Shown: piece by piece, positions 8,888-38,971 of the stretch
How positions within the stretch are numbered: the stretch's first letter is position 1
Layout: each line of letters opens with the position of its first letter
NCBI GenBank assembly: GCA_019359415.1
Contig: JAHHHH010000065.1
Span: forward strand, 1-43,862
DNA: 43,862 nucleotides
Direction of reading: 5' to 3'
Source of the DNA: Iphinoe sp. HA4291-MV1
GTDB taxonomy: Bacteria > Cyanobacteriota > Cyanobacteriia > Cyanobacteriales > Nostocaceae
Notes under the pieces: model-generated
Database searches by the model: none
The model's input: only the letters and a program-made list of their open reading frames with translations
Told to the model about the DNA's origin: nothing
Made by a program: the position numbers and the translations under genes

Positions 8888-9856
8888 ATGACTTTAACAT
8901 TAAAGGATTTAATCAAAAATGGAATACTCAATGAATTAGCAAGCTTATTTCATGAGCAGGAAATGGCTGATATATTGTTGGACTTAATTGATTTTCCTGT
9001 TGCTATGCGTCCTATATTTCCTAATAACGGTAGGATTTTAGGTTATTGGCGAGAGATTTGTAACCAAATTCAATCTGGTGCTGTGCGAGAAGGAACTGAC
9101 TTACAGCCACTGATTGATGCTACTATAGAGATTTACCCTGCCAATCCTGTTTTTCATCCATATTGTAGCGATCGCACTCAACCTAATAATCCCAATAATC
9201 ACCCAAGCAACACGTCACGGTCTAGCAATACAGAAGCATATGACCCTAGAATGTTCCAAGACAGTACTGGAAGGGGGCGACGAGTTGTCATTGACGGGGT
9301 TAATAAAGATAGTTCAACGGAACGTCTCAATCATGACCAAATATTAGGCGATGCAAACATTCAAGAAGAGGATAACCTTGAATCTATTGTTTTCCCTACT
9401 CTCTCTAATAAGAGTTATCAATCAAAACGTCAGCTTCAAGTTTTCTTGTGTCATTCTTCTGATGATAAGCCCACAGTTAGAGAACTCTACAAGCAACTAC
9501 TTAACGAAGAATTTCAACCCTGGCTTGATGAAGAGAACATTTTACCAGGACAAAACTGGGAACTAGAAATAAAAAAAGCCGTGCAAAGTGCTGATGTAAT
9601 TATTATATGCTTATCGAAAAATTCTGTTAATAAAATTGGCTACATACAGAAAGAAATTAAATTCGCTCTAGATATAGCTGAACGACAGCCTGAAGGCTCA
9701 ATCTTTATTGTTCCTATGAAAATTGACAATTGCAATGTACCCCAACGTTTATCTGATTACCAATGGCTTGATTGGTTTACAAATCCAGCAGTAGGGTACA
9801 TCAAGTTATTAAAGGCGCTAAAACATAGAGCTAAAGAACTAGGATTTAATCAATGA
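8888..9856 (+). CDS. EAD - partial ubiquitin-like - TIR effector
   Basis: A 322-residue protein. Residues 1-92 are an EAD nearly identical to that of the next gene. Residues about 116-160 match the C-terminal half of the ubiquitin-like domain of the E2 gene (EAYDPRMFQDSTGRGRR...). Residues 183 to about 315 are a TIR domain: LQVFLCHSSDD, FQPWLDEENILPGQNW, ADVIIICLSKNSV, and a candidate catalytic Glu256 in YIQKEIKFAL. Bacterial TIR domains of this kind often cleave NAD+. The architecture looks like a product of partial duplication of the neighbouring gene, which supplies the EAD and the truncated ubiquitin-like segment. The start ATG 8888 (MTLTLKDL) is supported by the identical start of the next gene. 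Confidence 0.82.
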   Translation: MTLTLKDLIKNGILNELASLFHEQEMADILLDLIDFPVAMRPIFPNNGRILGYWREICNQIQSGAVREGTDLQPLIDATIEIYPANPVFHPYCSDRTQPNNPNNHPSNTSRSSNTEAYDPRMFQDSTGRGRRVVIDGVNKDSSTERLNHDQILGDANIQEEDNLESIVFPTLSNKSYQSKRQLQVFLCHSSDDKPTVRELYKQLLNEEFQPWLDEENILPGQNWELEIKKAVQSADVIIICLSKNSVNKIGYIQKEIKFALDIAERQPEGSIFIVPMKIDNCNVPQRLSDYQWLDWFTNPAVGYIKLLKALKHRAKELGFNQ

Positions 9857-9921
9857 TTAATTAGCAATCTATAATTCATATTTTTCCAATAGTCAAAAAA
9901 TTGTTATCTCTCAAATTAGAA

Positions 9922-11602
9922 ATGACTTTAACATTAAAGGATTTAATAAAAAATGGAATACTCAATGAGTTAGCTGCCTTATTTCATGAGCAGGAAATGG
10001 CTGATATGTTGTTGGACTTAATTGATTTTCCTGTTGCTATGCGTCCTATATTTCCTAATAACGGTAGGACTTTAGGTTATTGGCGAGAGATTTGTAACCA
10101 AATTCAATCTGGTGCTGTGCGAGAAGGAACTGACCTACAACCACTGATTGATGCTACTGTAGGGATTTACCCTGCCAATCCTGTTTTTCATCAATATTGT
10201 AGCGATCGCACTCAACCCAATAATCCCAATAATCAACCAAGCAACACGTCGCAGTCTAGCAGCAGTGCATCACAAACACAACAAGCAGACCATAACTTGT
10301 TCATTATCTCAATACAAGGTCGAGATGACGCAGCCCATCTTCTTGCATCAGCTCGAGTCGTCGCCCCAGGACAAAGCATATCACCTGAACATATCAGTTT
10401 GCGATTTTCCGGAAATGGTGTTGTGTTGCTAGGACTTAACAACTGTAATTCTGAAGCAGTTGCGTCTTTTGCTGGAGGACTTCAGACAATACTCCAATCT
10501 AATCAAAATTCGGTGCGTGTTAATATATTCAGTAGACCGAAAAGATTTCTAGAAGGCTTACCATTGGGGCATTCTGGCGGATTGTATACAATCCGCCAGA
10601 ATGCCCGTATCATCTGCGTTTTGAGCAATAGGGTTGTAGATGAGTTCTCCTGCTAAGGTAAGCGATCGCTCGACCCTGTGCCCAAAACATCGCCCCAAAC
10701 CCTCATTCTTGCGTTGACTGACAAAAGTTTTCGGTCTACTGATATTAACTGAAGACCCTCAACCTTATCTTATCAGCCGTTTATTTGTTGAAGGACCAGA
10801 TCAAGCAAGATTTGAGGTTTGTGATGTTAGTTCCGATACGACTGTAGGAGAAATTGCAAAAGGGGTTGCAGCAGAAGCATATGATCCTAGAATGTTTCAA
10901 GACAGTACTGGAAGGGGGCGACGAGTTGTCATTGACAGGGTTAATGAAGATGGTTCAACAGAACGTCTCAATCATGACCAAACATTGCACGATGCAAACA
11001 TTCAGGAAGATGATACCGTGAGTTTTGCTCCGGAAGCAACGGCTGGAGCGCTTCATCCCCAACTGCGTCAAGAAGCCTTAGCTCGTGCTAGATCCCAAAT
11101 TATTGCTTATGCTCAAGCCCATCCAGGTTTTCAAGTCTCTGCTAATAACCATCTAGTTCCTACTGATTACTTGTTGCAGTTTCATGCACCAGGATTTGCA
11201 CCACCCTTGGAAATAGGTGGAGAACCTCAACCAATTGATGAACATGAAGTTTATCTTGCTTTACCCGGTGCATTTCCAATGCAAGCACCCCAAGCTATTT
11301 GGCAAACTCCTATCTTTCATCCCAATGTAGATCCTCAATCTGGTTTAGTTTGTCTGGGGGATTTGGGCGATCGCTATCGTCCTGGTTTAGATTTTGGTAA
11401 GTTGTGTCAGTTGTTAATTGATATTGCCAGCTACCAGAATTATGCTGTTGATGAGGGGTACAATAAAGCAGCCCAAGAATGGGCAATTTCTGAGCAAGGT
11501 CAAATTGCCATTGAACAGCGAGGTGGACAGTGTGTCCTGCGTAAATTAATCCATGAAGTGCAAACCCCTCCTCAACTCAATATTAAACGGTTGAACGAAT
11601 GA
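9922..11602 (+). pseudogene. EAD - ubiquitin-like - E2 gene interrupted by a MITE
   Basis: Two plus-strand frames form one gene of 487 codons when the MITE at 10530-10741 and one ATATT copy are removed: ...SVRVNI joins LTEDPQPYLISRL... in frame. Order in the reconstructed protein: EAD (1-92), Asn/Ser/Gln-rich linker, uncharacterised domain (about 120-205), ubiquitin-like YukD-type beta-grasp (about 209-295), then an E2/UBC-like domain with the HPN motif (His394, codon 11318) and catalytic Cys405 (VCLG, codon 11351). I use ATG 9922, matching the paralogue start. As it stands the first part stops at 10656, and the E2 half could be made only from an internal start such as ATG 10892, which cuts into the ubiquitin-like fold. 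A free E2 might still form. Confidence 0.85.
10530..10741. mobile_element. 212-bp MITE, family A, copy 2 (in the E2 gene)
   Basis: Same element as at 709-920 in opposite orientation: terminal repeats CAGTAGACCGAAAA and TTTTCGGTCTACTG, duplications ATATT at 10525-10529 and 10742-10746, and palindrome at 10567-10606. The 217-bp net insertion is not a multiple of three and brings a stop at 10654-10656. Confidence 0.95.
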
Positions 11603-13009
11603 AGGAACGGGATGACTATAGGATTGAATTATACCGAGGGGCAGACCGCAAATTCTTCGGTACAATGCTGTTTTTGCCTATCGTGCAAGAATCTCTAGAG
11701 CGGTTACTCGGACGTTCTTTGCTTTTAAAATCGATACAAATCTTAATTCTTCAAGTGCCTGAAGAACCTTTGCCAATGGAATCCCCCATTGTCGAAAATC
11801 TGGTTCCTAATTTCGGATATACTTATGTCAAAGTGTATGAAGGGGGTTTTTTAACCTACCAACATCCCCATCGCCTTTATGATGTTTTAACCAAAACCTT
11901 GCAAACGAAATTGAGAAATCAGTACCCAGAGGAAAGTTGGTGGGGTTTTCGGCTAGATATTCCGGGAATGCCCCAAGTTTTCGCAGTCAGCAGGTTAAAC
12001 TCTAGAGCATCAGTAGTGTATTCTACACCACAGGTAAGAGAAAGTGTAGAGATTCGTTCCTATGCACCGGGAAAAAAGCCTAGTTTTACAGTTCGTCGCC
12101 TAGTTGAAGAGGAACCTCCCATAAAAACCCTGGCTGATTTTGGGATGATATCTCATCAAACAAATTCGCAAGTACAAGAATTTGGCAGTGAAACTAGTCA
12201 AAATATACATTCTGTCTTAGTAGAACTATCAAGGGAACAAGAAAACAATAAGAGAACAACACAAGAGAAAATTCTTGTCCCCAAAGTAACCCCATTTCAA
12301 AACCAAGTAGCCAAAGCACCAGTCAAAATTGTTTTAAAGCGATCGCTATACCAAGATTTATGTCATCAGCGTCCCTTTTCCCGAAAAGTTGAAGAAGGTG
12401 GCTTTTTGATTGGCAAAGTTTATCGAGATGGGGATGATGAGAATGTTTATTTGCTAGAGGTGAGCAACGCGTTAACTGCTCAACACACAGGAGCTTCTTT
12501 TCTGCATTTAACTTTCACAGGTGATTCCTTTGTTGGGGTGAAACGTACACTAAACCAAAATCACCCAGGAGAACGCCTTTTAGGTTGGTATCACACCCAT
12601 TTATTTCCAGCAACACCGAGTTTTGGCTTATCCTCTGTTGATGTGGAGCTACACTTTAGCACTTTTACTATACCTTGGCAATTAGCAGGATTGATTAATG
12701 TCAGTAGACCGAAAACTTTTGTCAGTCAACGCAAGAATGAGGGTTTGGGGCGATGTTTTTGGCACAGGGTCGAGCGATCGCTTACCTTAGCAGGAGAACT
12801 CATCTACAACCCTATTGCTCAAAACGCAGATGATACGGGCATTCTGGCGGATTGTATACAATCCGCCAGAATGCCCCAATGGTAAGCCTTCTAGAAATCT
12901 TTTCGGTCTACTGAATGTAGATGGTAATAAGCGCACTTTGCGTTTTTATGTCCGTCAAGGAGACAAAATGGTTCTTTGTCCATACTGGGTGATTGATGAG
13001 CGCCACTGA
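11599..13009 (+). pseudogene. JAB/JAMM peptidase gene interrupted by a MITE
   Basis: The start ATG 11599 overlaps the E2 stop (ATGA). Removing the MITE at 12702-12913 and one AATGT copy joins ...IPWQLAGLIN to VDGNKRTLRFYVRQ... in frame, giving 397 codons that end at TGA 13007-13009. Residues about 1-200 are an unassigned N-terminal domain. Residues about 250-397 are a JAB (JAMM) metallopeptidase: EEGGFLIGKVY carries the candidate Glu, H332-x-H334 is in GWYHTHL, and S345 and D348 are in SSVD. Such enzymes process or remove ubiquitin-like proteins. The present frame keeps all metal ligands but swaps the last about 30 residues for 61 MITE-encoded ones, so residual activity is conceivable though the final strand and helix are lost. 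Confidence 0.85.
12702..12913. mobile_element. 212-bp MITE, family A, copy 3 (in the JAB gene)
   Basis: Same orientation as copy 1 and differing from it at about one base by eye (TGTTTTTGGCAC against TGTTTTGGGCAC). Duplications are AATGT at 12697-12701 and 12914-12918, and the palindrome is at 12837-12876. Confidence 0.95.
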
Positions 13010-13877
13010 TACAGCATTGCAAGTCATTGAGTGGGCTATGATGAGCCAAGAAGCTAGAGGAACACCGCCCCAAGGAGATCTATCTGGTGTAGAAAAGTTA
13101 GCTCGTCCTTCTGCAACTCTTGTTCAAGCCCTAGAACAATTAACTGCTGTGACAGCAGCTCGGTTGCGATGGGAAATGCCTCCTTTAGGAGATAATCGTC
13201 CCATTGCTGTGGGAAACTTGATTATAGCAGCAGCTTTGGGTACTGCTCATCCTCAGTTAGCCCGCACATTACTCAAGGGAGTACCAACGCTATCTTGTTC
13301 AGGAGATTGGGTAGTACGCTATGGTTTAGTGACTCCAGCTCTATCATTTCTTACAGAAGAGATGGCTGACGATTACCGACAGATCTCACCCTTAACTGCT
13401 ATTTTAAATCGACCAATAGCAGGACAAGAAACTTTAGGTGTTAATTTGGCATTGCAACTGTTGAAAAACTCAACAGCTAAGTTATCCCTGACTTTACACC
13501 TAGCACAACCAACTACAGATATTAAAGTTCGTTGTTGGAGAACTGAGCTACTCAATCGTCTGCGCCTTGGTGGACAAACAGAACAAAGTTTTGTCCTTGA
13601 TGTGTATGAAGCAGCGATGATTTATCATCAGCAAGAGGTGATGAACCAAGTTAGAGCTGCTTATAGTACGATTAGCGATCGCCAAGCAGCAAGTGATGAA
13701 GAAAATTTGCGAGATGCTTTGTCAATAGCTAATTGGTGGAAACCTCTGTGGGCGATTGAGCGAGCAGATGTGAATCAGCTTCGTCAGCGTCGCTATCTTA
13801 GTTATGCTTATCGTGAGGGAATTAAATTATTTAATTTGTCTCAGAAAATGTTAGGTGATGTTGAACACGTATATTAA
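12996..13877 (+). CDS. Uncharacterised cassette protein
   Basis: A 293-residue, mostly helical soluble protein. ATG 12996 (MSATDTALQVIEW) is preferred over the TTG at 12993. It overlaps the JAB stop by 14 bp, so it was translationally coupled to the JAB gene, a link now disturbed by the MITE frameshift upstream. No catalytic motif, signal peptide or membrane helix seen. It is a good candidate for one of the unnamed 'X' components that accompany FtsH-like AAA and vWA genes in ternary conflict systems, inferred from position only. Confidence 0.65.
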   Translation: MSATDTALQVIEWAMMSQEARGTPPQGDLSGVEKLARPSATLVQALEQLTAVTAARLRWEMPPLGDNRPIAVGNLIIAAALGTAHPQLARTLLKGVPTLSCSGDWVVRYGLVTPALSFLTEEMADDYRQISPLTAILNRPIAGQETLGVNLALQLLKNSTAKLSLTLHLAQPTTDIKVRCWRTELLNRLRLGGQTEQSFVLDVYEAAMIYHQQEVMNQVRAAYSTISDRQAASDEENLRDALSIANWWKPLWAIERADVNQLRQRRYLSYAYREGIKLFNLSQKMLGDVEHVY

Positions 13878-13926: not shown

Positions 13927-15909
13927 ATGGGTAAACCACGTATTAAACTTGTTCCTTTAATAGATGTGGAACAGTTCCAAAACTTCCTATATAATGATGA
14001 TTCAGTAACATTGGGAGAGTTCCTGTGCCAATTTCCGGCTCTGAGTACTTCTCCCATTGATGCCAGTGCTATGGAGCAAAAACTAGGACAATTATTCATT
14101 ACGGTTGCGGAAGAACCACCAGATTGTCCCTTGTATCGTCCCCCTGGTTTGGTGATTGTTGGGAGACTCGCAACAAATGAAAAGCAATCTCCAAATCCAG
14201 TATCTCCGCCAGTTGATTCTGAACCACAAAAAATAGAAACTCAACCAGAAACTCTTTCTACACCTCCAGATGATGACTTCCCAAACGACATTAGCGAAAA
14301 AGATGCTGTTAGACTAGCTTATGCACAGGAGGTTGACACAACCGCATCGTTTCTCAGAACTGGGCTTTCAGTGCTGGTGGTGTGTGAAAAATTGGTAGTT
14401 GAACACCTCTGGCAAGAAATGGCTCGGCGAGCTAATCTTAATCCTATCGAGTTGACTGTTCCTGATGAGGAAGAAGGAAGCCTAGTACCTCGAAGTCTGC
14501 GCCAACGTCAACTAGCAACTCTCAAAAATTTAATTAATACTCTTAAGCAAGGGGATATTTTGGTTATTCCCCATCTCGATTTACTTGCAGGGGGGAGTGA
14601 TGCTAATTTACCTACAGAATCTAGAGAACTCATTGAATTAGTTTACAAACAAAGCGATCGCTTGATGTTGGCTTTTGCAGATCGCTCTCAAGATATTCCA
14701 GAGGTATTAGCCGCAAGATTTGCAGTGCGGTTGCGAATTAGTGGAGTATCCCGCACAGTTATTTATCCTAACGGAGAAGAAAAAAACATCGGTAGAGCCT
14801 TGGTAACTGCAGATGAAGTCGCCCATTTTCAAGATTTTGACCCCGAAGGACTGTATAAAAATATTGCAGGTATGAACCCAATACGCTTGCGTCATGCCAT
14901 TAAATATGCTGTACAGGAAGTGGCTGGAACAGAAAAAGTACCTGTCACCCGCCTCTATCAAGCAATCAGAGCATTTAAAGCGCAAACCTCCATCAATTTT
15001 GAAGTTCCTGATGTCACTTTTGATGATATCGGTGGGTACAAGGAACTCAAAGCAGAACTCAGCAAAGCTCTGCGGTTAATGACTGGTTCTTACAACCTAC
15101 CCAACGAGCAGTTACGTCGGGAACTCATTCCTAGGGGTTTTATTTTTCATGGTCCTCCGGGTACAGGTAAAACCCTATTTGCCAAAGCCATAGCGAACCA
15201 ACTCAACGCAACCATTCAAGTGGTTTCAGGACCAGAAGTCACTGATATGTACGTTGGTGAAAGCGAGCGAAAGGTACGGGAACTGTTTGCGGAAGCTCGA
15301 CGCAACGCTCCAGCGGTTTTGGTTTTTGATGAATTTGATTCTATTGCCACTAAGCGCTCTGGACGAGATGATGGTGGAAGCAGGGCAGGAAACGCCTTAG
15401 TTGCTCAAATTCTCACTGAAATGGATGGGTTTCGTCCTGATGTTCCCATACTAGTGATTGGTACAACCAACCGTCTTGATATTATTGATGAAGCACTGTT
15501 GCGTCCCAGCCGTTTTAAAGCCATTGCCATTAATCGACCCGATACCCAAGCCAGACGAGCCATTGCTCAGGTTCATGCTCAGCACTTTGGCATTGAGGTG
15601 TCTACAGAACTCATTGAGGTCATTGCAGCAGAAACTGAGGGGATGAGTGGAGATGATATCCGCTCCTTGTTTCGCGATGCTTGTGTTGGTTTGTACTGTG
15701 ATGAACCACCCCGTCCAGCAGATGCTCATCGCTTTGGTGAATTGGTGGGTTTACTGCGTAAGGCTGCTACAGAGCGGAATGCAAGTTTTGCCGAACGTCG
15801 AACGTCTGCGTTTGAAGGTGTTCGTCTTGGTGAGCGAGTTAGACCAACAGTAGCAATGATTTCCCTAACACCATCTCTCAGTCTAGACAACAACAAATCA
15901 GTAGAATGA
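13927..15909 (+). CDS. AAA+ ATPase of the FtsH/CDC48-like type, no peptidase
   Basis: A 660-residue protein. The N-terminal about 350 residues are an unassigned region with a Pro/Glu-rich linker (about 85-125). Residues about 365-600 are a classical AAA+ module: VTFDDIGG, Walker A GPPGTGKT (409-416), pore-loop region GPEVTDMYVGESE, Walker B VLVFDEFD (D468, E469), sensor-1 IGTTNR, and an arginine-finger region ALLRPSRFKAI. FtsH membrane helices and the HEXXH protease are absent, so it is an unfoldase or switch ATPase. It lies 49 bp after the previous gene, and its stop overlaps the next start (ATGA at 15906). It probably drives or gates the cassette through ATP hydrolysis. Confidence 0.88.
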   Translation: MGKPRIKLVPLIDVEQFQNFLYNDDSVTLGEFLCQFPALSTSPIDASAMEQKLGQLFITVAEEPPDCPLYRPPGLVIVGRLATNEKQSPNPVSPPVDSEPQKIETQPETLSTPPDDDFPNDISEKDAVRLAYAQEVDTTASFLRTGLSVLVVCEKLVVEHLWQEMARRANLNPIELTVPDEEEGSLVPRSLRQRQLATLKNLINTLKQGDILVIPHLDLLAGGSDANLPTESRELIELVYKQSDRLMLAFADRSQDIPEVLAARFAVRLRISGVSRTVIYPNGEEKNIGRALVTADEVAHFQDFDPEGLYKNIAGMNPIRLRHAIKYAVQEVAGTEKVPVTRLYQAIRAFKAQTSINFEVPDVTFDDIGGYKELKAELSKALRLMTGSYNLPNEQLRRELIPRGFIFHGPPGTGKTLFAKAIANQLNATIQVVSGPEVTDMYVGESERKVRELFAEARRNAPAVLVFDEFDSIATKRSGRDDGGSRAGNALVAQILTEMDGFRPDVPILVIGTTNRLDIIDEALLRPSRFKAIAINRPDTQARRAIAQVHAQHFGIEVSTELIEVIAAETEGMSGDDIRSLFRDACVGLYCDEPPRPADAHRFGELVGLLRKAATERNASFAERRTSAFEGVRLGERVRPTVAMISLTPSLSLDNNKSVE

Positions 15910-17420
15910 GCAATGAAGAATCATATCAACTCCTACAAAAAGCCGCCCAATGCTACCTCGAAGCTGGATGGCTCATAGAAGCCTGTCGAGTCTGGGAACA
16001 AATCGGCGATTACCACCAAGCCGCCCAAACCTACGAACAACAATCAAACTGGCAAAAAGCCGCCCAATGCTACCAAAAAGCTCAAAACTGGTCAAATGCT
16101 GCTCGTTGCTACCTGATGTGTGAACAGCCACAAGCAGCCGCCGATTGTTGGCTACAAGCAGGACAAATCCTGCAAGCCGCCTGGATTTGGGCAGATAAGC
16201 AAAAGCAATTTCACCGCACCCAAGCACAATTAACCAACATTGTTCCTCAAAACCAAACCCAAGCAATAGAAATAGAACTCATCACTGCCCGTTGTCAAGC
16301 CAGCACAGGCAAGAAAAGCGAAAGTGCCCTCATACTTAGAGAACAATTAGAGCCATTACTAAAACTACCCCAAAAGCATTTGTATGAATGGGCATTAACC
16401 ATCGCACAAGTACTAACTAGACCAGATTTAACAGCCCTGATATATGCTACAGCATACAGAGCAAAGATGCCTAATGCCTGTAAAGAATGGGAAAAATGGG
16501 CACTTTCAACCCTAGGAGATGCGACAGGAATACCCAAAGAAGAATCAACTGAGGAATCAGCCAGTTTTGAATTTGAAGTCGTCACCGTTAACCGTAAAGG
16601 TGAAATCATCAAACGAGTATGGCATCAAGCTAGATATTTCAGCGAACCCTTGGGAAATGGTATTGATTTAGAAATGGTTTACATACCAGGGGGGACTTTT
16701 ATGATGGGTTCACCAGAGGATGAGAAAGATAGCCAAAGCTATGAAAAACCTCAACATCAAGTGACAGTGCAACCATTCTACATGGGCAAATTCCAAATCA
16801 CCCAAGCACAATGGCGAGCGGTAGCGAACTTACCCAAAATTGAGCAAGACTTGAACCCAGAGCCTTCCAGATTAAAAGGAGAGAATCGCCCCGTGGAGTG
16901 TGTATCTTGGTATGATGCAGTGGAGTTCTGTGCCAGATTATCAAAAGCAACAGGCAAGGAATACAGATTACCCTCTGAAGCCGAATGGGAATATGCTTGC
17001 CGTGCTGGAACCATAACACCATTTCACTATGGGCAAACTTTAACCAGTCAATTAGTGAATTATGATGCCAGTTATACCTATGCAGAAGAAGAAGCAGGAG
17101 AATATCGAGAACAAACCACCCCAGTAGGCAGTTTTCCTCCCAACAGCTTTGGCTTATACGATATGCATGGGAATGTGTGGGAATTGTGTGCAGACCCCTG
17201 GCATAGTAACTATGAAGGAGCACCAAAGGATGGGAGGGTATGGACAGATAATGGTAATAATAATCATTCTTGTGTACTGCGGGGCGGCTCGTGGATCAAC
17301 CTTTCTAGGAATTGCCGCTCTGCGTACCGCTACAACTATCTTGCGCGCGACGTCATCTACAACCTTGTTGGTTTTCGAGTGAGTTGCGGGGTTGGGAGCA
17401 CTCTTCAGTGTGAGAGTTGA
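15906..17420 (+). CDS. TPR-like / FGE-domain protein 1, DGR variable protein
   Basis: A 504-residue protein coupled to the AAA+ gene (ATGA). Residues 1-120 are TPR-like helical repeats (AAQCYLEAGWLIEACRVWE, AAQTYEQQ, AAQCYQKAQ, AARCYLMCE). Residues about 245-500 are a formylglycine-generating-enzyme/sulfatase-modifying fold of C-type-lectin type: MVYIPGGTFMMGS, QPFYMGKFQITQAQWRAV, PVECVSWYDA.EFC, YRLPSEAEWEYACRAG, GLYDMHGNVWELC, VLRGGSW and VGFRVSCG. The C-terminal loop carries variable codons at 17295-17366. In DGR systems this fold displays diversified ligand-binding residues rather than modifying sulfatases. It ends GVGSTLQCES, differing from its two paralogues after the variable region. 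Confidence 0.87.
   Translation: MSNEESYQLLQKAAQCYLEAGWLIEACRVWEQIGDYHQAAQTYEQQSNWQKAAQCYQKAQNWSNAARCYLMCEQPQAAADCWLQAGQILQAAWIWADKQKQFHRTQAQLTNIVPQNQTQAIEIELITARCQASTGKKSESALILREQLEPLLKLPQKHLYEWALTIAQVLTRPDLTALIYATAYRAKMPNACKEWEKWALSTLGDATGIPKEESTEESASFEFEVVTVNRKGEIIKRVWHQARYFSEPLGNGIDLEMVYIPGGTFMMGSPEDEKDSQSYEKPQHQVTVQPFYMGKFQITQAQWRAVANLPKIEQDLNPEPSRLKGENRPVECVSWYDAVEFCARLSKATGKEYRLPSEAEWEYACRAGTITPFHYGQTLTSQLVNYDASYTYAEEEAGEYREQTTPVGSFPPNSFGLYDMHGNVWELCADPWHSNYEGAPKDGRVWTDNGNNNHSCVLRGGSWINLSRNCRSAYRYNYLARDVIYNLVGFRVSCGVGSTLQCES
17295..17366 (+). other. DGR-type variable region 1 (VR1)
   Basis: Twenty-four codons after RGGSW. Compared with VR2 and VR3, codons 1-3, 6, 13-16, 19, 20, 22 and 24 differ, always at positions 1 and 2 and never at position 3. 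Here they read ATC, AAC, CTT, AAT, TAC, AAC, TAT, CTT, GAC, GTC, TAC, CTT. Intervening codons (TCT AGG, TGC CGC TCT GCG TAC CGC, GCG CGC, ATC) are constant, as expected when only template adenines of AAY codons are randomised. Confidence 0.85.
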
Positions 17421-17548
17421 CAGGTGGGAATCTGTCGAGAGTACCGAAGAAGAGTCCAGCCTTATTCCTGTGATACTGGTGACAGTATCCGAAAATAAAA
17501 TTGAGTTGGGGAGCTTGGTAGGTTTTTAACCGAACAGTTCCTCAGCTC

Positions 17549-18440
17549 TACTAAACAAATTAAAAGTTAAAAGCCGCTTAAAATTAAATGTAAGAATTCA
17601 GGAGTCAGAATCCAGGAGTCAGAATAGTTAAAGAATCAGGAGAATATTTATCAATGAATATATCTCAGGATGCTAAACTCCTGACAAATTCACAGCTTCT
17701 GACTCCTGGGTGCTGAATTCTTACAATTAAACTAATCTCAGATTCTACAGTATAGAAAAAACCGAGCAGAGTGAACCCATCCCCAGACGAAGCGACTTCC
17801 ATAGAACTGCTACAAAAAGCCGCCCAATGCTACCTCGAAGCTGGATGGCTCATAGAAGCCTGTCGAGTCTGGGAACAAATCGGCGATTACCACCAAGCCG
17901 CCCAAACCTACGAACAACAAGCAAACTGGCAAAAAGCCGCCCAATGTTACCAAAAAGCTCAAAACTGGTCAAATGCTGCTCGCTGTTACCTGATGTGTGA
18001 ACAACCACAAGCAGCCGCCGATTGCTGGCTACAAGCAGGACAAATCCTACAAGCCGCCTGGATTTGGGCAGATAAGCAAAAGCAATTTCACCGCACCCAA
18101 GCACAATTAGCCAACATTATCCCTCAAAACCAAACCCAAGCAATAGAAATAGAACTGATAACTGCCCGTTGTCAAGCCAGCACAGGCAAGAAAAGCGAAA
18201 GCGCTCTCATACTTAGAGAGCAATTAGAGCCATTACTAAAACTACCCCAAAAGCATTTGTATGAATGGGCATTAACCATCGCACAAGTACTAACTAGACC
18301 AGATTTAACAGCCCTGATATATGCTACAGCCTACAGGGCAAAAATGCCTAATGCCTGTAAAGAATGGGAAAAATGGGCAATTTCAACCCTAGGAGATGCG
18401 ACAGGAATACCCAAAGAAGAATCAGCCGAGGAACTCGCAA
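17549..18440. repeat. About 892-bp segmental repeat, copy 1
   Basis: This block, covering 222 bp of upstream DNA and the first about 670 bp of the second FGE gene, matches 20698-21589 base for base by eye (constant offset 3149). It marks a recent duplication or gene conversion that carried the upstream region and the GTG start along. It begins abruptly at TACTAAACAAATT and ends at CTCGCAA. Confidence 0.85.
17590..17724. repeat. 135-bp inverted-repeat element (interspersed repeat)
   Basis: Ends GTAAGAATTCAG (17590-17601) and CTGAATTCTTAC (17713-17724) are perfect inverted repeats, and inside them CAGGAGTCAGAA occurs twice and its complement once, so it can fold as a long stem. A second copy lies at 20739-20873 upstream of FGE gene 3. 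The remaining gap 17421-17589 holds no gene. Confidence 0.75.
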
Positions 18441-19291
18441 GTTTTGAATTTGAAGTCGTCACCGTTAACCGCAAAGGTGAAATTATCAAACGAGTATGGC
18501 ATCAAGCCAGATATTTCAGCGAACCCTTGGGAAATGGTATTGATTTAGAAATGGTTTACATACCAGGGGGGACTTTTATCATGGGTTTACCACAGGAGGA
18601 GGAAAAAGATGATTGGAGTCAAGGAAAGGAAATTCCCCAACATCAAGTGACAGTGCAACCATTCTACATGGGCAAATTCCAAATCACCCAAGCACAATGG
18701 CGAGCGGTAGCGAATTTACCCAAAGTTGAGCGAGACTTGAACCCAGAGCCTTCTAGATTCAAAGGAGAGAATCGCCCCGTGGAGTGTGTATCTTGGTACG
18801 ATGTGGTGGAATTTTGTGCCCGACTGTCAAAAGCCACAGGTAAGGAATACAGATTACCCTCAGAAGCCGAATGGGAATATGCTTGCCGTGCTGGAACCAT
18901 AACACCATTTCACTATGGGCAAACTTTAACCAGTCAATTAGCGAATTATGATGCCAGTTATACCTATGCAGAAGAAGCAGCAGGAGAAAATCGAAGAGAA
19001 ACCACCCCAGTAGGCAGTTTTCCTCCCAACAGCTTTGGCTTATACGATATGCATGGGAATGTGTGGGAATTGTGTGCAGACCCCTGGCATAGTAACTATG
19101 AAGGAGCACCAAAGGATGGGAGGGTATGGACAGATAATGGTAATAATAATCATTCTTGTGTACTGCGGGGCGGCTCGTGGGACCACGATTCTAGGTATTG
19201 CCGCTCTGCGTACCGCGGCGCCTATGATGCGCGCGACGACATCTTCAACAATGTTGGTTTTCGAGTGAGTTGCGGGGTTGGGAGGACTTAG
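17771..19291 (+). CDS. TPR-like / FGE-domain protein 2, DGR variable protein
   Basis: A 506-residue paralogue of the preceding FGE protein, with the same TPR-like N-terminus and FGE fold. The start is GTG 17771 (MNPSPDEATSIELL), conserved exactly in the third copy; no canonical ribosome site is evident. It differs from copies 1 and 3 by a five- to six-codon longer loop after the first FGE strand (QEEEKDDWSQGKEIPQ) and by its variable residues at 19181-19252. It ends VSCGVGRT. Probably an interchangeable sensor or ligand-binding subunit for the AAA+ system. Confidence 0.87.
   Translation: MNPSPDEATSIELLQKAAQCYLEAGWLIEACRVWEQIGDYHQAAQTYEQQANWQKAAQCYQKAQNWSNAARCYLMCEQPQAAADCWLQAGQILQAAWIWADKQKQFHRTQAQLANIIPQNQTQAIEIELITARCQASTGKKSESALILREQLEPLLKLPQKHLYEWALTIAQVLTRPDLTALIYATAYRAKMPNACKEWEKWAISTLGDATGIPKEESAEELASFEFEVVTVNRKGEIIKRVWHQARYFSEPLGNGIDLEMVYIPGGTFIMGLPQEEEKDDWSQGKEIPQHQVTVQPFYMGKFQITQAQWRAVANLPKVERDLNPEPSRFKGENRPVECVSWYDVVEFCARLSKATGKEYRLPSEAEWEYACRAGTITPFHYGQTLTSQLANYDASYTYAEEAAGENRRETTPVGSFPPNSFGLYDMHGNVWELCADPWHSNYEGAPKDGRVWTDNGNNNHSCVLRGGSWDHDSRYCRSAYRGAYDARDDIFNNVGFRVSCGVGRT
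19181..19252 (+). other. DGR-type variable region 2 (VR2)
   Basis: Variable codons here: GAC, CAC, GAT, TAT, GGC, GCC, TAT, GAT, GAC, GAC, TTC, AAT. Third positions are identical to VR1 and VR3 in every column. The flanks (CGGGGCGGCTCGTGG before, GTTGGTTTTCGAGTGAGTTG after) are identical in all three copies, and the GC-rich 3' flank is the likely homing-initiation segment. Confidence 0.85.
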
Positions 19292-19686
19292 CCCTTTGCT
19301 CTTTTTTCCCTTTTCTCCTAAGAAACACAGGGAACTCTTAAGAAGGGAACTCTTAACAGGGAAGAAGGGAAAGAGGTGTTTCTTTCATTCGTTGCGGGCG
19401 TGTAATCGCGCCCCTTGGGCGCTCACATCTTGCACCAAGAAAAGTTTATTTAACTTTTACACACAGTACTAAGCCTCAAGTTCTTATTATTACGACAAAA
19501 GACAAGAAAAACCGTGTCACTTTCTTGCGCTGCTTTTAACTAAATCCGGGCTTATACGGTTAGGTGCAAGATCTGAGTTTTGCCCTTTTGCCCTTTTTTT
19601 ATTTTTCCCTTCTTTGTTGTTACATACAGTGGTTTGCAATTCAATGAGATACATTCGGACAGGCGAGGACACCCACCCCACAAGAA
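19292..19686. other. Gene-free spacer
   Basis: C/T-rich and purine-rich low-complexity text (CCCTTTTCTCC, GGGAAGAAGGG) without a credible gene. The same TTAGCCCTTTGCTCTTTTT run follows FGE gene 3. A short frame overlapping the FGE stop is not supported. Confidence 0.5.
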
Positions 19687-20209
19687 CTATTTATCCAAGT
19701 TTGAGTCAGAAAATAAAGATTCTAAATCTCGATAACCGCTAACCACCCGTGCAATCACAAGTCTATCTTCAAATAATCGATAAAAAATAATATAGCTATT
19801 CAAAGGTATTCCTCTAAGTGTCGGGTCAAAATTTGAGTAACTTCGTCCAATATTTGGAAACCTTGTGAGATATTCAGTAGACCGAAAAGATTTCTAGAAG
19901 GCTTACCATTGGGGCATTCTGGCGGATTGTATACAATCCGCCAGAATGCCCGTATCATCTGCGTTTTGAGCAATAGGGTTGTAGATGAGTTCTCCTGCTA
20001 AGGTAAGCGATCGCTCGACCCTGTGCCCAAAACATCGCCCCAAACCCTCATTCTTGCGTTGACTGACAAAAGTTTTCGGTCTACTGATATTGACACTTTT
20101 TATTAAACTCCTGAAGGAATCGTTCACCTGCTTCGATATCACGAGTTAGAAAATAATCTAAAATATCATCTAAATCACGACTGGCTTCTAATGAAATAGA
20201 GTATTGCAT
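19687..20209 (-). pseudogene. parE: ParE-type toxin gene interrupted by a MITE
   Basis: The minus-strand frame from ATG 20209 (MQYSISLEASRDLDDILDYF) is cut by the MITE at 19875-20086. Removing it with one ATATT copy restores a 101-residue RelE/ParE-fold toxin: ...FNKKCQ joins YLTRFPNIGRSYSNF, followed by LRGIPLNSYIIFYRL and IARVVSGYRDLESLF, to TAG at 19687-19689. The start overlaps the antitoxin stop (TAATG). Members poison DNA gyrase or cleave mRNA. The insertion removes the conserved C-terminal half, so the toxin is almost certainly dead. Confidence 0.85.
19875..20086. mobile_element. 212-bp MITE, family A, copy 4 (in parE)
   Basis: Same orientation as copy 2, terminal repeats CAGTAGACCGAAAA and TTTTCGGTCTACTG, duplications ATATT at 19870-19874 and 20087-20091, and palindrome at 19912-19951. 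Confidence 0.95.
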
Positions 20210-20475
20210 TATTCTTGACCCTCACGGGCTTGTCGTAACTTTCCTTCCAGCCGAGCCATTACCACCTCACTATCAAGCACCTCTCCCCGTTCAATTTGAG
20301 CAAGTCCAACAGCCACTTTTTGTCGAGTTTCTTCTTCCCAATTCTTGTACCCCTTTTCCCATTCTTCTAGTAGTTTTAACGCTTTAGTGACAACTTCTTC
20401 AGGATTCGTATATCTACCACTTGCTACTTGTGCTTGAATAAATTGCTCGTGTTCAGGTGCTAGTTGGATATACAT
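20209..20475 (-). CDS. parD: ParD-type antitoxin
   Basis: An 88-residue protein with a ribbon-helix-helix-like start (MYIQLAPEHEQFIQAQVASGRYTNPEEVVTKAL, given here as family pattern: beta strand, EqFI..qV.sGrY.n..EVV..AL.lLe) and a charged helical C-terminus that would wrap the toxin. It precedes the parE gene with a one-base overlap. It should bind its own promoter and neutralise ParE, and with parE broken it is an orphan antitoxin. Chance insertion in the toxin is tolerated because the antitoxin remains. Confidence 0.85.
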   Translation of the reverse strand: MYIQLAPEHEQFIQAQVASGRYTNPEEVVTKALKLLEEWEKGYKNWEEETRQKVAVGLAQIERGEVLDSEVVMARLEGKLRQAREGQE

Positions 20476-20624
20476 AAATTTTCTTCTAAATAATTAATTT
20501 TCTTACCCCTATTCTAATCCTAAAGCAGGAGCATCCCATGAATTATCTGTAGGGATTGAAATGTCATTGCGAGCGAAACGCAGTGAAGCGTAGAGCCTTT
20601 CCTGCGGAACGCTACGCGAACGGC

Positions 20625-20653
20625 ATAGCTGAGTCCCAAAGGGACTCAGCTAT
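20625..20653. other. 13-bp perfect stem with AAA loop in an interspersed repeat
   Basis: ATAGCTGAGTCCC-AAA-GGGACTCAGCTAT. It sits within repeat-like text (about 20553-20655, TCATTGCGAGCGAAACGC...) of a kind widely dispersed in cyanobacteria. The gap 20476-20919 otherwise holds the second copy of the 135-bp element and no gene. Confidence 0.7.
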
Positions 20654-20697
20654 CGCAAGAATCGTATTTTATGTTTTTTTCTGTTGACCTACCTACT

Positions 20698-21589
20698 TAC
20701 TAAACAAATTAAAAGTTAAAAGCCGCTTAAAATTAAATGTAAGAATTCAGGAGTCAGAATCCAGGAGTCAGAATAGTTAAAGAATCAGGAGAATATTTAT
20801 CAATGAATATATCTCAGGATGCTAAACTCCTGACAAATTCACAGCTTCTGACTCCTGGGTGCTGAATTCTTACAATTAAACTAATCTCAGATTCTACAGT
20901 ATAGAAAAAACCGAGCAGAGTGAACCCATCCCCAGACGAAGCGACTTCCATAGAACTGCTACAAAAAGCCGCCCAATGCTACCTCGAAGCTGGATGGCTC
21001 ATAGAAGCCTGTCGAGTCTGGGAACAAATCGGCGATTACCACCAAGCCGCCCAAACCTACGAACAACAAGCAAACTGGCAAAAAGCCGCCCAATGTTACC
21101 AAAAAGCTCAAAACTGGTCAAATGCTGCTCGCTGTTACCTGATGTGTGAACAACCACAAGCAGCCGCCGATTGCTGGCTACAAGCAGGACAAATCCTACA
21201 AGCCGCCTGGATTTGGGCAGATAAGCAAAAGCAATTTCACCGCACCCAAGCACAATTAGCCAACATTATCCCTCAAAACCAAACCCAAGCAATAGAAATA
21301 GAACTGATAACTGCCCGTTGTCAAGCCAGCACAGGCAAGAAAAGCGAAAGCGCTCTCATACTTAGAGAGCAATTAGAGCCATTACTAAAACTACCCCAAA
21401 AGCATTTGTATGAATGGGCATTAACCATCGCACAAGTACTAACTAGACCAGATTTAACAGCCCTGATATATGCTACAGCCTACAGGGCAAAAATGCCTAA
21501 TGCCTGTAAAGAATGGGAAAAATGGGCAATTTCAACCCTAGGAGATGCGACAGGAATACCCAAAGAAGAATCAGCCGAGGAACTCGCAA
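20698..21589. repeat. About 892-bp segmental repeat, copy 2
   Basis: Partner of 17549-18440, including the 135-bp inverted-repeat element (20739-20873) and the first about 670 bp of FGE gene 3. Confidence 0.85.
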
Positions 21590-22431
21590 CCTACGAATTT
21601 GAAGTCGTCAGCGTTAACCGCAAAGGTGAAATCATCAAACGAGTATGGCATCAAGCCAGATATTTCAGCGAACCCTTAGGAAATGGTATTGATTTAGAAA
21701 TGGTTTACATACCAGGGGGGACTTTTATCATGGGTTCTCCAGAGGATGAGAAAGATAGCCAAAGCTATGAAAAACCTCAACATCAAGTGACAGTGCAACC
21801 ATTCTACATGGGCAAATTCCAAATCACCCAAGCACAATGGCGAGCGGTAGCGAATTTACCCAAAATTGAGCAAGACTTGAACCCAGAGCCTTCAGAATTC
21901 AAAGGAGAGAATCGCCCCGTGGAGTGTGTATCTTGGTACGATGTGGTGGAATTTTGTGCCAGATTATCAAAAGCCACAGGTAAGGAATACAGATTACCCT
22001 CAGAAGCCGAATGGGAATATGCTTGCCGTGCTGGAACCATAACACCATTTCACTATGGGCAAACTTTAACCAGTCAATTAGTGAATTATTATGCCAGTTA
22101 TACCTATGCAGAAGAAGCAGCAGGAGAATATCGAAGAGAAACCACCCCAGTAGGAAGTTTTCCTCCCAATGGCTTTGGCTTATACGATATGCATGGGAAT
22201 GTGGAAGAATGGTGTGCAGACCCCTGGCATAGTAACTATGAAGGAGCACCAAATGATGGAAGGGTATGGACAGATAATGGTAATAATAATCATTCTTGTG
22301 TACTGCGGGGCGGCTCGTGGAACTTCTATTCTAGGTATTGCCGCTCTGCGTACCGCTTCGTCTGTGATGCGCGCGCCCTCATCAACAACGTTGTTGGTTT
22401 TCGAGTGAGTTGCGGGGTTGGGAGGACTTAG
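20920..22431 (+). CDS. TPR-like / FGE-domain protein 3, DGR variable protein
   Basis: A 503-residue third paralogue, GTG start at 20920. Its first about 223 codons match copy 2 exactly. The loop after the first FGE strand (GSPEDEKDSQSYEKPQ) matches copy 1 instead, and the following part returns to copy 2, so the gene is a mosaic. It alone reads GNVEEWCADPW where the others have GNVWELCADPW. It is separated from copy 2 by the parDE module, which runs on the opposite strand. Variable region at 22321-22392. Confidence 0.87.
   Translation: MNPSPDEATSIELLQKAAQCYLEAGWLIEACRVWEQIGDYHQAAQTYEQQANWQKAAQCYQKAQNWSNAARCYLMCEQPQAAADCWLQAGQILQAAWIWADKQKQFHRTQAQLANIIPQNQTQAIEIELITARCQASTGKKSESALILREQLEPLLKLPQKHLYEWALTIAQVLTRPDLTALIYATAYRAKMPNACKEWEKWAISTLGDATGIPKEESAEELATYEFEVVSVNRKGEIIKRVWHQARYFSEPLGNGIDLEMVYIPGGTFIMGSPEDEKDSQSYEKPQHQVTVQPFYMGKFQITQAQWRAVANLPKIEQDLNPEPSEFKGENRPVECVSWYDVVEFCARLSKATGKEYRLPSEAEWEYACRAGTITPFHYGQTLTSQLVNYYASYTYAEEAAGEYRRETTPVGSFPPNGFGLYDMHGNVEEWCADPWHSNYEGAPNDGRVWTDNGNNNHSCVLRGGSWNFYSRYCRSAYRFVCDARALINNVVGFRVSCGVGRT
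22321..22392 (+). other. DGR-type variable region 3 (VR3)
   Basis: Variable codons here: AAC, TTC, TAT, TAT, TTC, GTC, TGT, GAT, GCC, CTC, AAC, GTT. Together the three copies vary at 21 of 72 nucleotides, all in codon positions 1 and 2. Every position can be explained by adenine in an inferred AAY template. Confidence 0.85.
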
Positions 22432-22833: not shown

Positions 22834-24495
22834 ATGGCAGACCCCCCCAAGTTCACAATCCGGCGGATAACCCCAGAGGAAAAGCCTCCATCAGAACCAA
22901 CAGTACCAATCCCCCCGCCTCCAATAAAACAAGAGCAAACCCCACCACCCCCATCAAAAACACCAATTCCCCAACCCTTATTAGACACATCAACAGGTGG
23001 GTATTTTTGCAGCGTCAACAGTGTTCTGGCTTTTCTCGGCTCCGTTTTTGGTACCAGGTTATCAGAAACAGCAGCCGTTCGTCGCACTCCACAGGGAACT
23101 TGGTGGGCAGAAGTAGCCGTTTCCCATGAACGCATCGCTCCCTTAATTTGGACAGCCGGAGGTCGTCCTTTTGCCCGTGAAAATCAGCTATGGGTAGCCT
23201 TGTCTCTATCAGGAGATTTACCTCCAGATGATTCTAACAGATCAAAATTGGATATTAGCTCCTGGACAATCGTCGATTTAGCAGAATTGCTCGCAGAAGC
23301 CAGCCTTCCCCCTAGTCGTTATCGAGGCGCTAGCGTTCTCGATGTTATCACCCCTGGTTCTCTCGGTCGCTGGATTTTGCGCCGTGCTACCGCTTTAGGT
23401 TTAGAAGTCACCCTGACACCAGCAGTGCAAAAACCCCTTAACAATCAGCAACAGAAAGATTCAGGAGTTTTGCTGATGCAACTGCGATACGCTTTGCGTC
23501 AAGCCTCCGGCTTATCGCCAGGAAACCGCACTATTCCCGCTGCCTTAGTCCATCGTTTAACGAGCTTACCTTATACAATTGTGGCAGCTTCCTCAACAGA
23601 TTCTGAGAGGGGAAGAATTTTGGTAGATGTGCGTCAGCGTCTATCTCTAGCTCCTAGTTTAATAGAGCCGATGATTCCCGAATCAGAAATTTGGGTACTA
23701 GGAACCGCAGATGTAGGGAACTGGCGACTCACGACTACCGGGAATCAGGTTGACGGTTCATTATTATTAGATGCACCTCAACTTCCCCAAGCGAAAGCTC
23801 CTTCCCAGACTACTGCTCAACTACCAGCACCTATCCCCGTGCAACTTGTCCCTCGTCCCGGAACAGGTCGGCAAGTTGATGCAGTCTTACTAGATGATAC
23901 AGAATTATCTTGGGTGCGTAACTTACTGATGGGAAGACCTATAGGAGAAATGGCATTTCTCTTACCAGGAGCAGGATACCACTTATTAACTGCTCCTGGA
24001 GGTTTACCAGCACAAATTCCCTTGGGCATTCCTTTAGTTTGGATTGGTCCCAGTGCGCTTTATTTAGAACTAGGTATGGATTTTTATCCCCCTTTACCCG
24101 ATGCAGCTCGTCAGCAACGTTTTCACCTCAATTCCCAAACAGCGGTTGTTGTGGCTCGAAACCAAACCTATCGTTTCAACACAGCACAAATGACCCCCGT
24201 TTGGGCGCTATGGGTGGGAGAAGCACCAAAGGTTCAGGAGGGGCTTTCAGCACAAGGGAAGAAATTGCTCAATAGTATTCCGCAACCGTTACAGCAGCAG
24301 GAAAGTAAGAAGGGAATATTAAGTATTTTTAAGCCTAAGCAGGTTAAGCGTGATGAGGGGGTGGGACTTTTGGAGCAAGCGCAGAAAGCGGAATTGAAAG
24401 GGGATTTGGTGAAAGCTGCAGCTTTGTTGGAGAAGGCGGGTTATGCGGGACAGGCGGGGCGGTTGTATGAACGGATGGCGACGGGTGGGAGATGA
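22834..24495 (+). CDS. Uncharacterised cassette protein with Pro-rich start and TPR-like tail
   Basis: A 553-residue protein. It begins with a FTIRRITPEEKPP motif and a Pro-rich linker (about 15-48). The central about 400 residues are unassigned alpha/beta sequence (GGYFCSVNSVLAFLGS..., TWWAEVAVSHERI.PLIWTAGGRPF...). It ends in a TPR-like helix pair (LLEQAQKAELKGDLVKAAALLEKAG...) that echoes the FGE proteins. A similar FTVRRLVEEEPP motif occurs in the JAB protein, suggesting a shared docking peptide. By neighbourhood it is likely an accessory component of an FtsH-like ternary system. The C-terminal helices could pair with the TPR-like part of the FGE proteins. Confidence 0.65.
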   Translation: MADPPKFTIRRITPEEKPPSEPTVPIPPPPIKQEQTPPPPSKTPIPQPLLDTSTGGYFCSVNSVLAFLGSVFGTRLSETAAVRRTPQGTWWAEVAVSHERIAPLIWTAGGRPFARENQLWVALSLSGDLPPDDSNRSKLDISSWTIVDLAELLAEASLPPSRYRGASVLDVITPGSLGRWILRRATALGLEVTLTPAVQKPLNNQQQKDSGVLLMQLRYALRQASGLSPGNRTIPAALVHRLTSLPYTIVAASSTDSERGRILVDVRQRLSLAPSLIEPMIPESEIWVLGTADVGNWRLTTTGNQVDGSLLLDAPQLPQAKAPSQTTAQLPAPIPVQLVPRPGTGRQVDAVLLDDTELSWVRNLLMGRPIGEMAFLLPGAGYHLLTAPGGLPAQIPLGIPLVWIGPSALYLELGMDFYPPLPDAARQQRFHLNSQTAVVVARNQTYRFNTAQMTPVWALWVGEAPKVQEGLSAQGKKLLNSIPQPLQQQESKKGILSIFKPKQVKRDEGVGLLEQAQKAELKGDLVKAAALLEKAGYAGQAGRLYERMATGGR

Positions 24496-24515: not shown

Positions 24516-26273
24516 ATGTTTGAACGCTTCACAGAAAAAGCTATTAAGGTAATTCTGCTAGCCCAGGAAGAAGCTCGCCGTCTTGGGCATAATTTCGTGG
24601 GTATTGAGGAGATCCTCTTGGGTCTGATTAGAGAAGATACCGGAGTGGCGGCTAAGGTACTGAAGTCTATGGGTGTCAATCTCAAAGACGCTCGGATTGA
24701 AGTAGAAAAAATCATCGGTCGAGGCTCTGGCTTGGTTGCTGTGGAAATTCCGTTTACGCCACGGGCAAGGCGGGTTCTAGAACTATCCTTGGAAGAAGCG
24801 GGCCAATTAGGGCATAACTACATTGGTACCGAGCATCTGTTGTTGGGCTTAATCCCAGAAGGGGAAGGTGTAGGAGTTAGACTGCTAGAAGAGCTAGGGG
24901 TAGATCTGTCTAAAGTAAGAACCCAAGTTATCCGGCTGTTGAATCCAGACAACAGCCAGCCTCAAAATGCTGAACAGGAGAAAGCTCTTAATTATTTCAT
25001 TACTCGACAAGCACTAACAGTAGGACGACAAGTACAAGAAGATTTATCTATTGAAATTTCTCCTTTATCCAGTTACCCCTACTTTCTCTCGACTGCTTTA
25101 GCCCAAATGCACCGACTGGGCATTTATCCTCCATTATCCCTAATCCAAGACCTCCTCGACCTCACAGGTGGTCAAACCGTAAATAACCCCCTCGCTCAAC
25201 TAGCAAAAGACACTGAAATTTCCGAATTAATCGCCCTACACTGGTCTGCACCAGCTCGCATCGGACTCGTTGCACTACTACTCCATAAAATTCCTTTCCC
25301 TGGTTGGGAACCGCCATCCGATATTTCTCCCAGAGAAATCAGTACTGCTCTCCAAGCTGGTTTAAAAGGGGAACCCATCGAACCACAAGCCCCACCCCCA
25401 CCCATTTCCCTATTACACCAAGCAGCTAAACTTATTGATGAGCAACTCTTATCCTTACTCACAATTCTAGGTGAACAAGCGATCGCATCTGAACCAGCTT
25501 TACCCCTACGTTTACTTTCCCGTATCCCCAGTTTACCAGCTTTAAGTTCGCTACAACGCCAATTACTAGGAGTGCGGGTTTGTTTTGGCGACTATACAGG
25601 ACGCTCCATTGGAAATGCTCCCGGTGCAGAACGAGGACAAGTCACTGGTGTGGAGACATCTAGCCGCACTGATTGGAATTCCTTACTTCCCAGTCAATTA
25701 GCTTTACCGCAACCAGTTCTTAACTACCGTTACCAGCGAGGAGAATTGTTATTTCGCACCCGCCAACTCGCTGAACCACCACGTCTGCGTCCTACAGTTC
25801 TGCTCTTGGATGTCACTCCCTCTGCTTTTGGTCCCATTGAAGCGATTACCCGCACAGCTGCATTTGCTGTAGCTAACTCCTTACGACAAGCAGAAATACC
25901 CGTAGTCCTGATTACCACTGGCGAGGAGCAAGAACAGATAGTCCAACTTGACAATCCACAGGATTTGGTAGAAATTTGGACGCAACGAGCGATCACACCA
26001 GCCAATGAAGTCAGAAGTTTAAAGCTAGCGAATGCAATACGAACTAACTTACTGGATGAAAGTGGACTGGAACCAATTATATTATTATTCACTCATCCTT
26101 GGTTTGGCGCTGAGAAAAAAATATCTCGTATACAAGGACTGAGGGCACTATTTATTCAATATCCTTCTGTTCAGGTACAACCCGCTATTGCTAACTTATG
26201 CGAAAGATGGGAAAGCATAGGTGCTAAACAAACAACAGATTTAGGTCAAACTCTTGGATACTTAATGGGATAA
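24516..26273 (+). CDS. ClpN (Clp R) domain fused to a vWA-like domain
   Basis: A 585-residue protein starting 20 bp after the previous stop. Residues 1-145 are a double Clp N-terminal repeat almost like cyanobacterial ClpC ([33 protein letters not shown], and a second [14 protein letters not shown]), but no Clp ATPase follows. The middle is helical. Residues about 425-585 look like a von Willebrand A domain: [13 protein letters not shown] gives a partial MIDAS (D432, T434, S436) and IPVVLITTG and EPIILLFTH are core strands. The Clp N domain may dock substrates or adaptors and the vWA may engage the AAA+ ATPase. ClpN-vWA proteins fit the vWA member of ternary AAA systems. Confidence 0.8.
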
Positions 26274-38708: not shown

Positions 38709-38971
38709 AGTAATAGTAACTAATTATCGAATTATTGAACTTTCTTTGACGATTTGTGACTGACCCTGGCGCTAGTCTCCGAGTTATTACGGAGACTATG
38801 CTTTGTATTCCTGCGGCACGCTTTGCGCTTACAAAATAAAAAAACAGCAAAAAGAATTGACTAAAAAGCGTGAATGTAGTAAGTAAATAGCATAACCAGT
38901 TAACTAAATGGAGAGTTTAGAGGATTCTAAGTCTCCTGCTATGCTATGAATAGATTTGGTGCAAGAGAATG

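Follow-up and report, generated by a model that had tools for sequence, protein, structure and literature searches.

How did the ends of three tandem FGE genes come to differ in one defined subset of their codons, and is the process responsible still at work? The question is raised by the window, that is, the whole stretch of 43,862 nucleotides analysed here (contig JAHHHH010000065.1 of the cyanobacterium Iphinoe sp. HA4291-MV1). On its plus strand lie FGE1 (15906..17420; 504 aa, PF03781 at 200 bits), FGE2 (17771..19291; 506 aa, 195 bits) and FGE3 (20920..22431; 503 aa, 203 bits). FGE1 combines an N-terminus of helical repeats, TPR-like with TPR matches under the cut-off, with a C-terminal FGE/C-type-lectin (CLec) domain, and the other two share this architecture. 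Their variable regions VR1 (17295..17366, +), VR2 (19181..19252, +) and VR3 (22321..22392, +) were defined by codon alignment and by comparison with the templates (TRs) of relatives; VR2 and VR3 also have a VR-type 3′ end. All three are placed at the 3′ end of the FGE/CLec genes, as DGR variable regions require. A first-pass annotation of the sequence had proposed a present-day hypervariable recognition module, diversified by adenine-specific mutagenic retrohoming, within an AAA+/EAD conflict cassette.

The pattern behind this proposal is borne out by the codon alignment of FGE1-3. Twelve of the 24 VR codons vary, at 21 sites, exactly as claimed. These sites are distributed 10/11/0 over codon positions 1/2/3, so that the differences are indeed confined to the first two positions, and the third base (C or T) is constant across copies in every variable codon. 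In the 460 alignable codons upstream of the VR, the corresponding distribution is 23/17/54 (Fisher p = 2.4e-7 for VR against upstream part). The flanks had also been described as identical. This holds from about 17240 to 17398 in FGE1 coordinates, apart from the variable codons, but the next base already differs (AGC in FGE1, AGG in FGE2 and FGE3), and shortly past it FGE1 diverges completely from the other two. Within the identical tract, the 52 third positions show 0 differences against about 6.1 expected (p about 0.0015, an optimistic value because the tract ends were picked after inspection).

If a DGR produced these differences, the variable sites should correspond to template adenines. 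The genome itself yielded no matching TR, and the templates of relatives were therefore used, so that adenine at the 21 sites is read by proxy from other species. An RT match at E <= 1e-50 occurs at 74 places in 56 of 218 genomes of the family, and the 30 places assigned to a locus were examined. Downstream of the RT, 29 of these 30 loci carry a repeat of at least 70 bases of upstream sequence, L136 aligning over 14 bases only; Avd of at least 100 aa is present in 26. Summed over all 30 loci, L136 and L135 (70 bases) included, TR/VR mismatches fall on template A in 411 cases and on other bases in 31, some of the latter being tails where automatic trimming ran past the repeat; 18 loci have no non-A mismatch at all. 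In the same-genus genome G004, for instance, contig 182 shows the order MoxR-like ATPase, vWA-FGE-like target (both names assigned by eye), broken avd, RT, TR and a conserved element.

The variable columns of FGE1-3 were compared with 33 TRs: 29 of the 30 RT-locus TRs (one was not picked up), a TR-like repeat on contig C12 of the own genome and three RT-less loci considered below. The closest, L142, is 78% identical at constant columns. It has A at all 21 variable VR sites and, counted by column, in 21 of 22 variable columns vs 11 of 92 constant ones (p 5.9e-14); the sole non-A variable column is the junction base, outside the VR. The other TRs have A in 15-22 of 20-22 variable columns, and the excess is found in 33/33 (p 2.0e-15 to 4.7e-4). 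Abundant differences at non-adenine template positions, which would speak against retrohoming, are not seen with L142. As far as can be judged from these patterns, adenine-directed DGR mutagenesis is the explanation of the 21 VR sites: the L142 match, the 411 vs 31 mismatches and an array in another genus (see below) all agree with it.

The gene neighbourhood is a predicted FtsH-type ternary conflict system with ubiquitin-like conjugation. All its genes are on the plus strand. Upstream of FGE1 are found an E1-like ThiF enzyme (5357..6457; PF00899, 147 bits), a Trypco2 adaptor (6712..7092; PF19631, 65.9 bits), a CHAT peptidase-like effector with EAD1 (7121..8794; PF12770, 90.5 bits; PF19955, 25 bits), an EAD1-TIR effector (8888..9856; PF13676, 89.9 bits; PF19955, 30.3 bits), an EAD1-YukD-like Ubl part shortened by a repeat element (9901..10656; PF20006, 51.1 bits; PF19955, 31.4 bits), an E2 (UBC) part standing apart from it (10892..11602; PF00179, 37.4 bits), a JAB peptidase with fvmJAB_N (11599..12885; PF20011, 186 bits; JAB 20.4 bits, under its cut-off), the FtsH ternary system marker fvmX1 (12993..13877; PF19998, 361.8 bits) and an FtsH-like AAA+ ATPase with a single AAA match (13927..15909; PF00004, 144.4 bits). 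Downstream of FGE3 follow an fvmX7 protein (22834..24495; PF20005, 172.3 bits) and a ClpN-repeat protein (24516..26273; PF02861, 121.5 bits), the presumed vWA component, recognized as vWA by eye and with no Pfam match to that domain. Hence fvmX1, fvmX7 and the FtsH-like AAA+, by which FtsH ternary systems are recognized, are all present, as is the Ubl conjugation set (E1, E2-Ubl, JAB) with an EAD1 effector, albeit with a split Ubl-E2 gene. A RING match stays below its cut-off (19.5 of 29.1 bits). The further traits looked for were a MoxR ATPase, a vWA protein and a second, inactive AAA domain; scanning 20 proteins of the window gave a single AAA match and none named MoxR. The reading as an AAA+/EAD cassette is upheld by Pfam matches to the AAA+, the EAD1 effectors and the fvm domains. 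In the other-genus genome G170, Ubl-E2 is one 484-aa ORF; here a repeat element bounded by inverted ends divides it, and the conflict system may therefore itself be declining.

The marker fvmX1 is found in 3 of the 218 family genomes. Among 388 genomes drawn from the order, the same three carry it, with one further match below the cut-off. All three have FGE genes inside the cluster: three in this genome, four in G170 and two in G024. In copies a-c of G170, VR sites are distributed 15/10/2 over the codon positions, vs 26/26/70 upstream (p 8.9e-7); adding copy d gives 17/11/4 (p 2.7e-6). At the third positions of the 12 codons, the G170 copies match FGE3 in 47 of 48 cases (upstream: 62-65%), while at first and second codon positions of the VR they match it at only 3-12 of 24. 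In the two-gene G024 array, the codon-position bias is not significant (p 0.12). These observations bear on the idea that the three ends were shaped with no DGR at all, either by positive selection acting on ordinary divergence or by conversion between paralogues. Conversion does occur among the FGE paralogues, since the tandem copies share long identical stretches. However, such processes would have to leave 0 third-position changes across 12 maximally different codons, place the variable sites on TR adenines, reproduce in another genus the same codons with the same third bases and account for the RNA element at FGE1 described next. This makes the idea scarcely credible.

Where FGE2 and FGE3 end as the VRs of relatives do, FGE1 continues into an element that follows TRs in relatives and was seen at all 30 RT loci examined. 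This DGR spacer-RNA (Sp) element (17397..17536, +) is joined directly to VR1 and keeps 26/26 consensus pairs. Its four-helix consensus comes from an alignment of 32 sequences, i.e. 31 of the 33 located elements (without L120 and L140) and the window copy. Both sides change somewhere in 13 of the 26 pairs, and 97.5% of cells pair, against 35-51% for slid structures. Double-change cells number 82 vs 24.4 in shuffles, and four of five covariation measures exceed the shuffles; the exception is further pair types (35 vs 33.2), reached by 90/500. It should be kept in mind that one alignment served both to derive the structure and to assess it, which works in its favour, and that the shuffles do not preserve relatedness. 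Rfam at the gathering score gave no match in the window or in loci L007 and L024. The spacer RNA of the BPP-1 DGR is reportedly the subject of work by Handa et al. in 2025. The Sp element is most likely, by analogy, its cyanobacterial counterpart, because the BPP-1 spacer, as described in the relevant part of the source, lies after the TR and is reported to fold, to recruit RT-Avd and to prime cDNA (PMC12875486).

The junction base was considered at 12 loci with an alignment across it: TR ends read AGC[GA]CT (10), AGAGCT (1) or AGTACT (1), and VR ends begin with AGG (12). As a marker of TR against VR, this base alone was rejected because other TRs carry AGGTCT or ATGTCT; the whole element is diagnostic. 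Three loci in the genus have a VR, a TR and the element with no RT. In one of them (G005:C166), template A accounts for 19 of 21 TR/VR mismatches and the junction for the remaining two; the second (G004:C190) has 13 at A, 2 at C and, in addition, a gap; the third (G002:C360) has 15 at A and another 16 at other bases, and is degenerate on account of the latter. These three loci look like further steps of DGR decay.

The simplest route to the FGE1-Sp arrangement would be a crossover between VR and TR, although a chimeric contig join is conceivable, in which VR1 was fused during assembly to the TR of an otherwise unassembled intact locus. The join does fall within sequence common to VR and TR of one DGR, and the order in relatives is VR-RT-TR-Sp. 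On the other hand, a contig with the RT and the start of the TR would then be expected, and none was found in the assembly; the three RT-less loci of the genus also show that this block is lost naturally. An assembly chimera is accordingly judged quite improbable.

What remains of the DGR elsewhere in the genome was searched for in its draft assembly (140 contigs, 95.35% complete). No intact DGR RT was found in it with the RVT_1 profile and a DGR RT query, no intact Avd, and, with the VRs as query, no TR matching them at non-A bases. Apart from the three VRs themselves, the VR query returned the C12 repeat, which does not match, and two hits of 17-20 bases at chance level. The DGR RT query added just one piece, 24 aa long and containing a stop, on contig C4, where it lies with a 30-aa Avd fragment beside an FGE gene; the RT fragment, though broken, has a DGR-like SQ stretch. 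Three RT matches obtained with RVT_1 were rejected as DGR RTs, the ORFs being group-II-intron-like with HNH-like tails as judged by eye. The repeat on C12 (L007:254-350), whose element is interrupted, was rejected as a template since its constant bases differ from VR1 and only 12 of 37 mismatches are at A; its constant bases also differ from the FGE ends on C4, C92 and C133. The 19-base constant run has 0 matches in viral contigs, phages gave no match, and three plasmid records have FGE-like matches at 67-84% identity. An intact DGR RT, an intact Avd and a matching TR, which together would make a complete working DGR, are thus all missing from the assembly, and the template with AAC/AAT codons expected beside a DGR RT and Avd does not appear in the 140 contigs. 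The claim of a present-day hypervariable module finds no support in this search. The lack of RT and TR in the complete genome had been put forward as grounds for abandoning the DGR reading altogether; in this 95.35%-complete draft the lack is nominally found, but the DGR origin stands, as FGE1 runs at its end into the RNA element located behind the TRs of relatives.

It may be imagined that the DGR is intact and active, with RT and TR in the unassembled part of the genome or on a plasmid, acting in trans on FGE1-3. Besides the incompleteness of the assembly, cyanobacterial plasmids carry DGR RTs of this type, 66-81% identical (6 records at >=60% identity), trans action is reported in the pertinent part of one study (PMC10907252), and the VR constant bases are still identical. 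Yet three kinds of DGR relic lie in the genome, FGE1 carries the Sp element with no TR, and none of the three genomes with such arrays has an RT at E <= 1e-50; this last point weighs little, since 162 of the 218 family genomes lack one anyway. An active DGR in trans is therefore regarded as unlikely. A more speculative idea, to which very little credence is given, is that FGE1 serves as a coding template: its message, in which a spacer RNA of intact fold adjoins the variable region, could recruit RT-Avd provided in trans, perhaps from a plasmid, and seed VR2 and VR3 from a receptor in current use. If true, a hit-and-run DGR would sample around a proven sensor of an FtsH/ubiquitin-like conflict system and not restart from a neutral AAY template.

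The account considered quite probable is that a DGR diversified three FGE sensors and was then lost, leaving a fixed receptor set. FGE1-3 would be the sensors of the FtsH-type ternary system, the end of their C-type-lectin domain being the DGR variable region. As the pattern and the intact relatives suggest, an AAY-rich template RNA would have been copied into cDNA by RT-Avd with its adenines misread, and this cDNA would have replaced each VR, the constant bases staying alike. Later the DGR, now absent from the assembled genome, would have been lost, and at FGE1 a VR-TR crossover would have deleted avd, RT and the remainder of the TR. Three fixed receptors with differing ligand-facing residues would result. 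If published models serve as a guide, the binding of a ligand may act through the AAA+/ClpN machinery and the EAD adaptors on the CHAT and TIR effectors. The past tense fits: the locus was DGR-diversified, and the DGR has apparently been lost. Four points are counted against this account: adenine at the 21 sites is read from TRs of other species, the G024 bias is not significant, the loss is judged from a draft, and the FGE1 join could be a chimera.

On this account, DGR-diversified sensors, hitherto tied to VMAP and STAND systems, are found in the FtsH/Ubl class too, and their footprint is seen in two genera. The locus would show how a diversifier is lost while its products persist as a tandem, fixed receptor set, so that 'generate, then keep' can be put to the test in bacteria. 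The post-TR RNA element, with its covarying pairs, also gives a handle for finding DGR loci, and scars with no RT or TR.

In the literature consulted, DGRs are tied to VMAP ternary and STAND systems. One study describes the DGR link for the VMAP ternary systems and calls the FtsH/Ubl ternary class rare in cyanobacteria (Kaur et al., 2020, PMC7159879). In sections of other papers, DGR targets are suggested to sense antigens, and degenerate loci are noted (Dore et al., 2024, PMC10907252); remote targets in cyanobacteria are described, some of them bearing TPR or other repeat domains (Vallota-Eastman et al., 2020, PMC7517822); and, for Nostoc punctiforme, high TR-RNA expression is reported with adenine-specific variation in targets by MoxR/vWA genes (2025, PMC12691664). 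No paper linking DGR targets to FtsH ternary systems came up in the literature searched. Like the cyanobacterial VMAP-ternary DGRs, so far as those sections describe them, the present locus has a C-terminal FGE/CLec VR, an adenine-directed pattern, a conflict neighbourhood, paralogous and remote targets and degenerate loci. It differs from them in its FtsH-type cluster with Ubl conjugation, in targets with a TPR-like N-terminus instead of vWA, three of them in tandem, and in that RT and matching TR were not found in the assembly. With the Ubl/ClpN variant of FtsH ternary systems, as outlined in the relevant text of PMC7159879, it shares FtsH-like AAA+, ClpN, E1, E2, JAB, EAD1-Ubl, a caspase-like effector and fvm domains; unlike that system it has no MoxR among the scanned window proteins, and the description in section 21 of that paper is without FGE sensors and DGR. 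The Sp element resembles the BPP-1 spacer, as presented in the portion of the source concerned, in being a folded RNA that immediately follows the TR in relatives, whereas here the element follows a coding VR. Finally, the three proteins differ from Treponema TvpA (PDB 2y3c) in their N-terminal part and host, but they have in it a homologous FGE/CLec variable protein (E 9.6e-22, from sequence only).

The element that follows the TR in cyanobacterial DGRs is a structured RNA with covariation, as seen in alignment A1, which brings together 31 such elements and the window copy joined to the VR of FGE1 (17397-17536); in the same-genus genome G004, it lies at L026:8020-8160 on contig C182. Scanning of three sources (the window, L007 and L024) gave no Rfam match at gathering score for this element. 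At the G004:C182 locus, Avd is interrupted (L026:9732-9826) and the RT frame is open. Three other loci of the genus, L025 (G004:C190), L027 (G002:C360) and L028 (G005:C166), have VR, TR and element with no RT between VR and TR. The G002 and G005 genomes have no RT at E <= 1e-50, and despite this the VR/TR pair of G005 (L028) is clean. A decayed DGR locus is also found in the own genome (L105:4500-5720, contig C4 of G000), where the end of an FGE target is followed by a tandem array of ~21-bp units, then by Avd and RT fragments.

The conflict cluster may be located on or near an integrative element, because the window contains an integrase (30045-31046) and a Type IV secretion coupling protein followed by ORFs judged by eye to be conjugation-like (36954-43791). 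A 214-bp perfect direct repeat occurs at 708-921 and 12701-12914, and the JAB gene (11599-12885, forward strand) ends within the second of these copies. At 10529-10742 and 19874-20087 lie two copies of a MITE-like element whose terminal inverted repeats are 20 nt long, both sitting inside 225-bp perfect repeats. The first copy interrupts the EAD1-Ubl-E2 gene (EAD1-Ubl part, 9901-10656; E2 part, 10892-11602; both forward), the counterpart of which is a single ORF in G170, a genome of another genus with a homologous FGE array.
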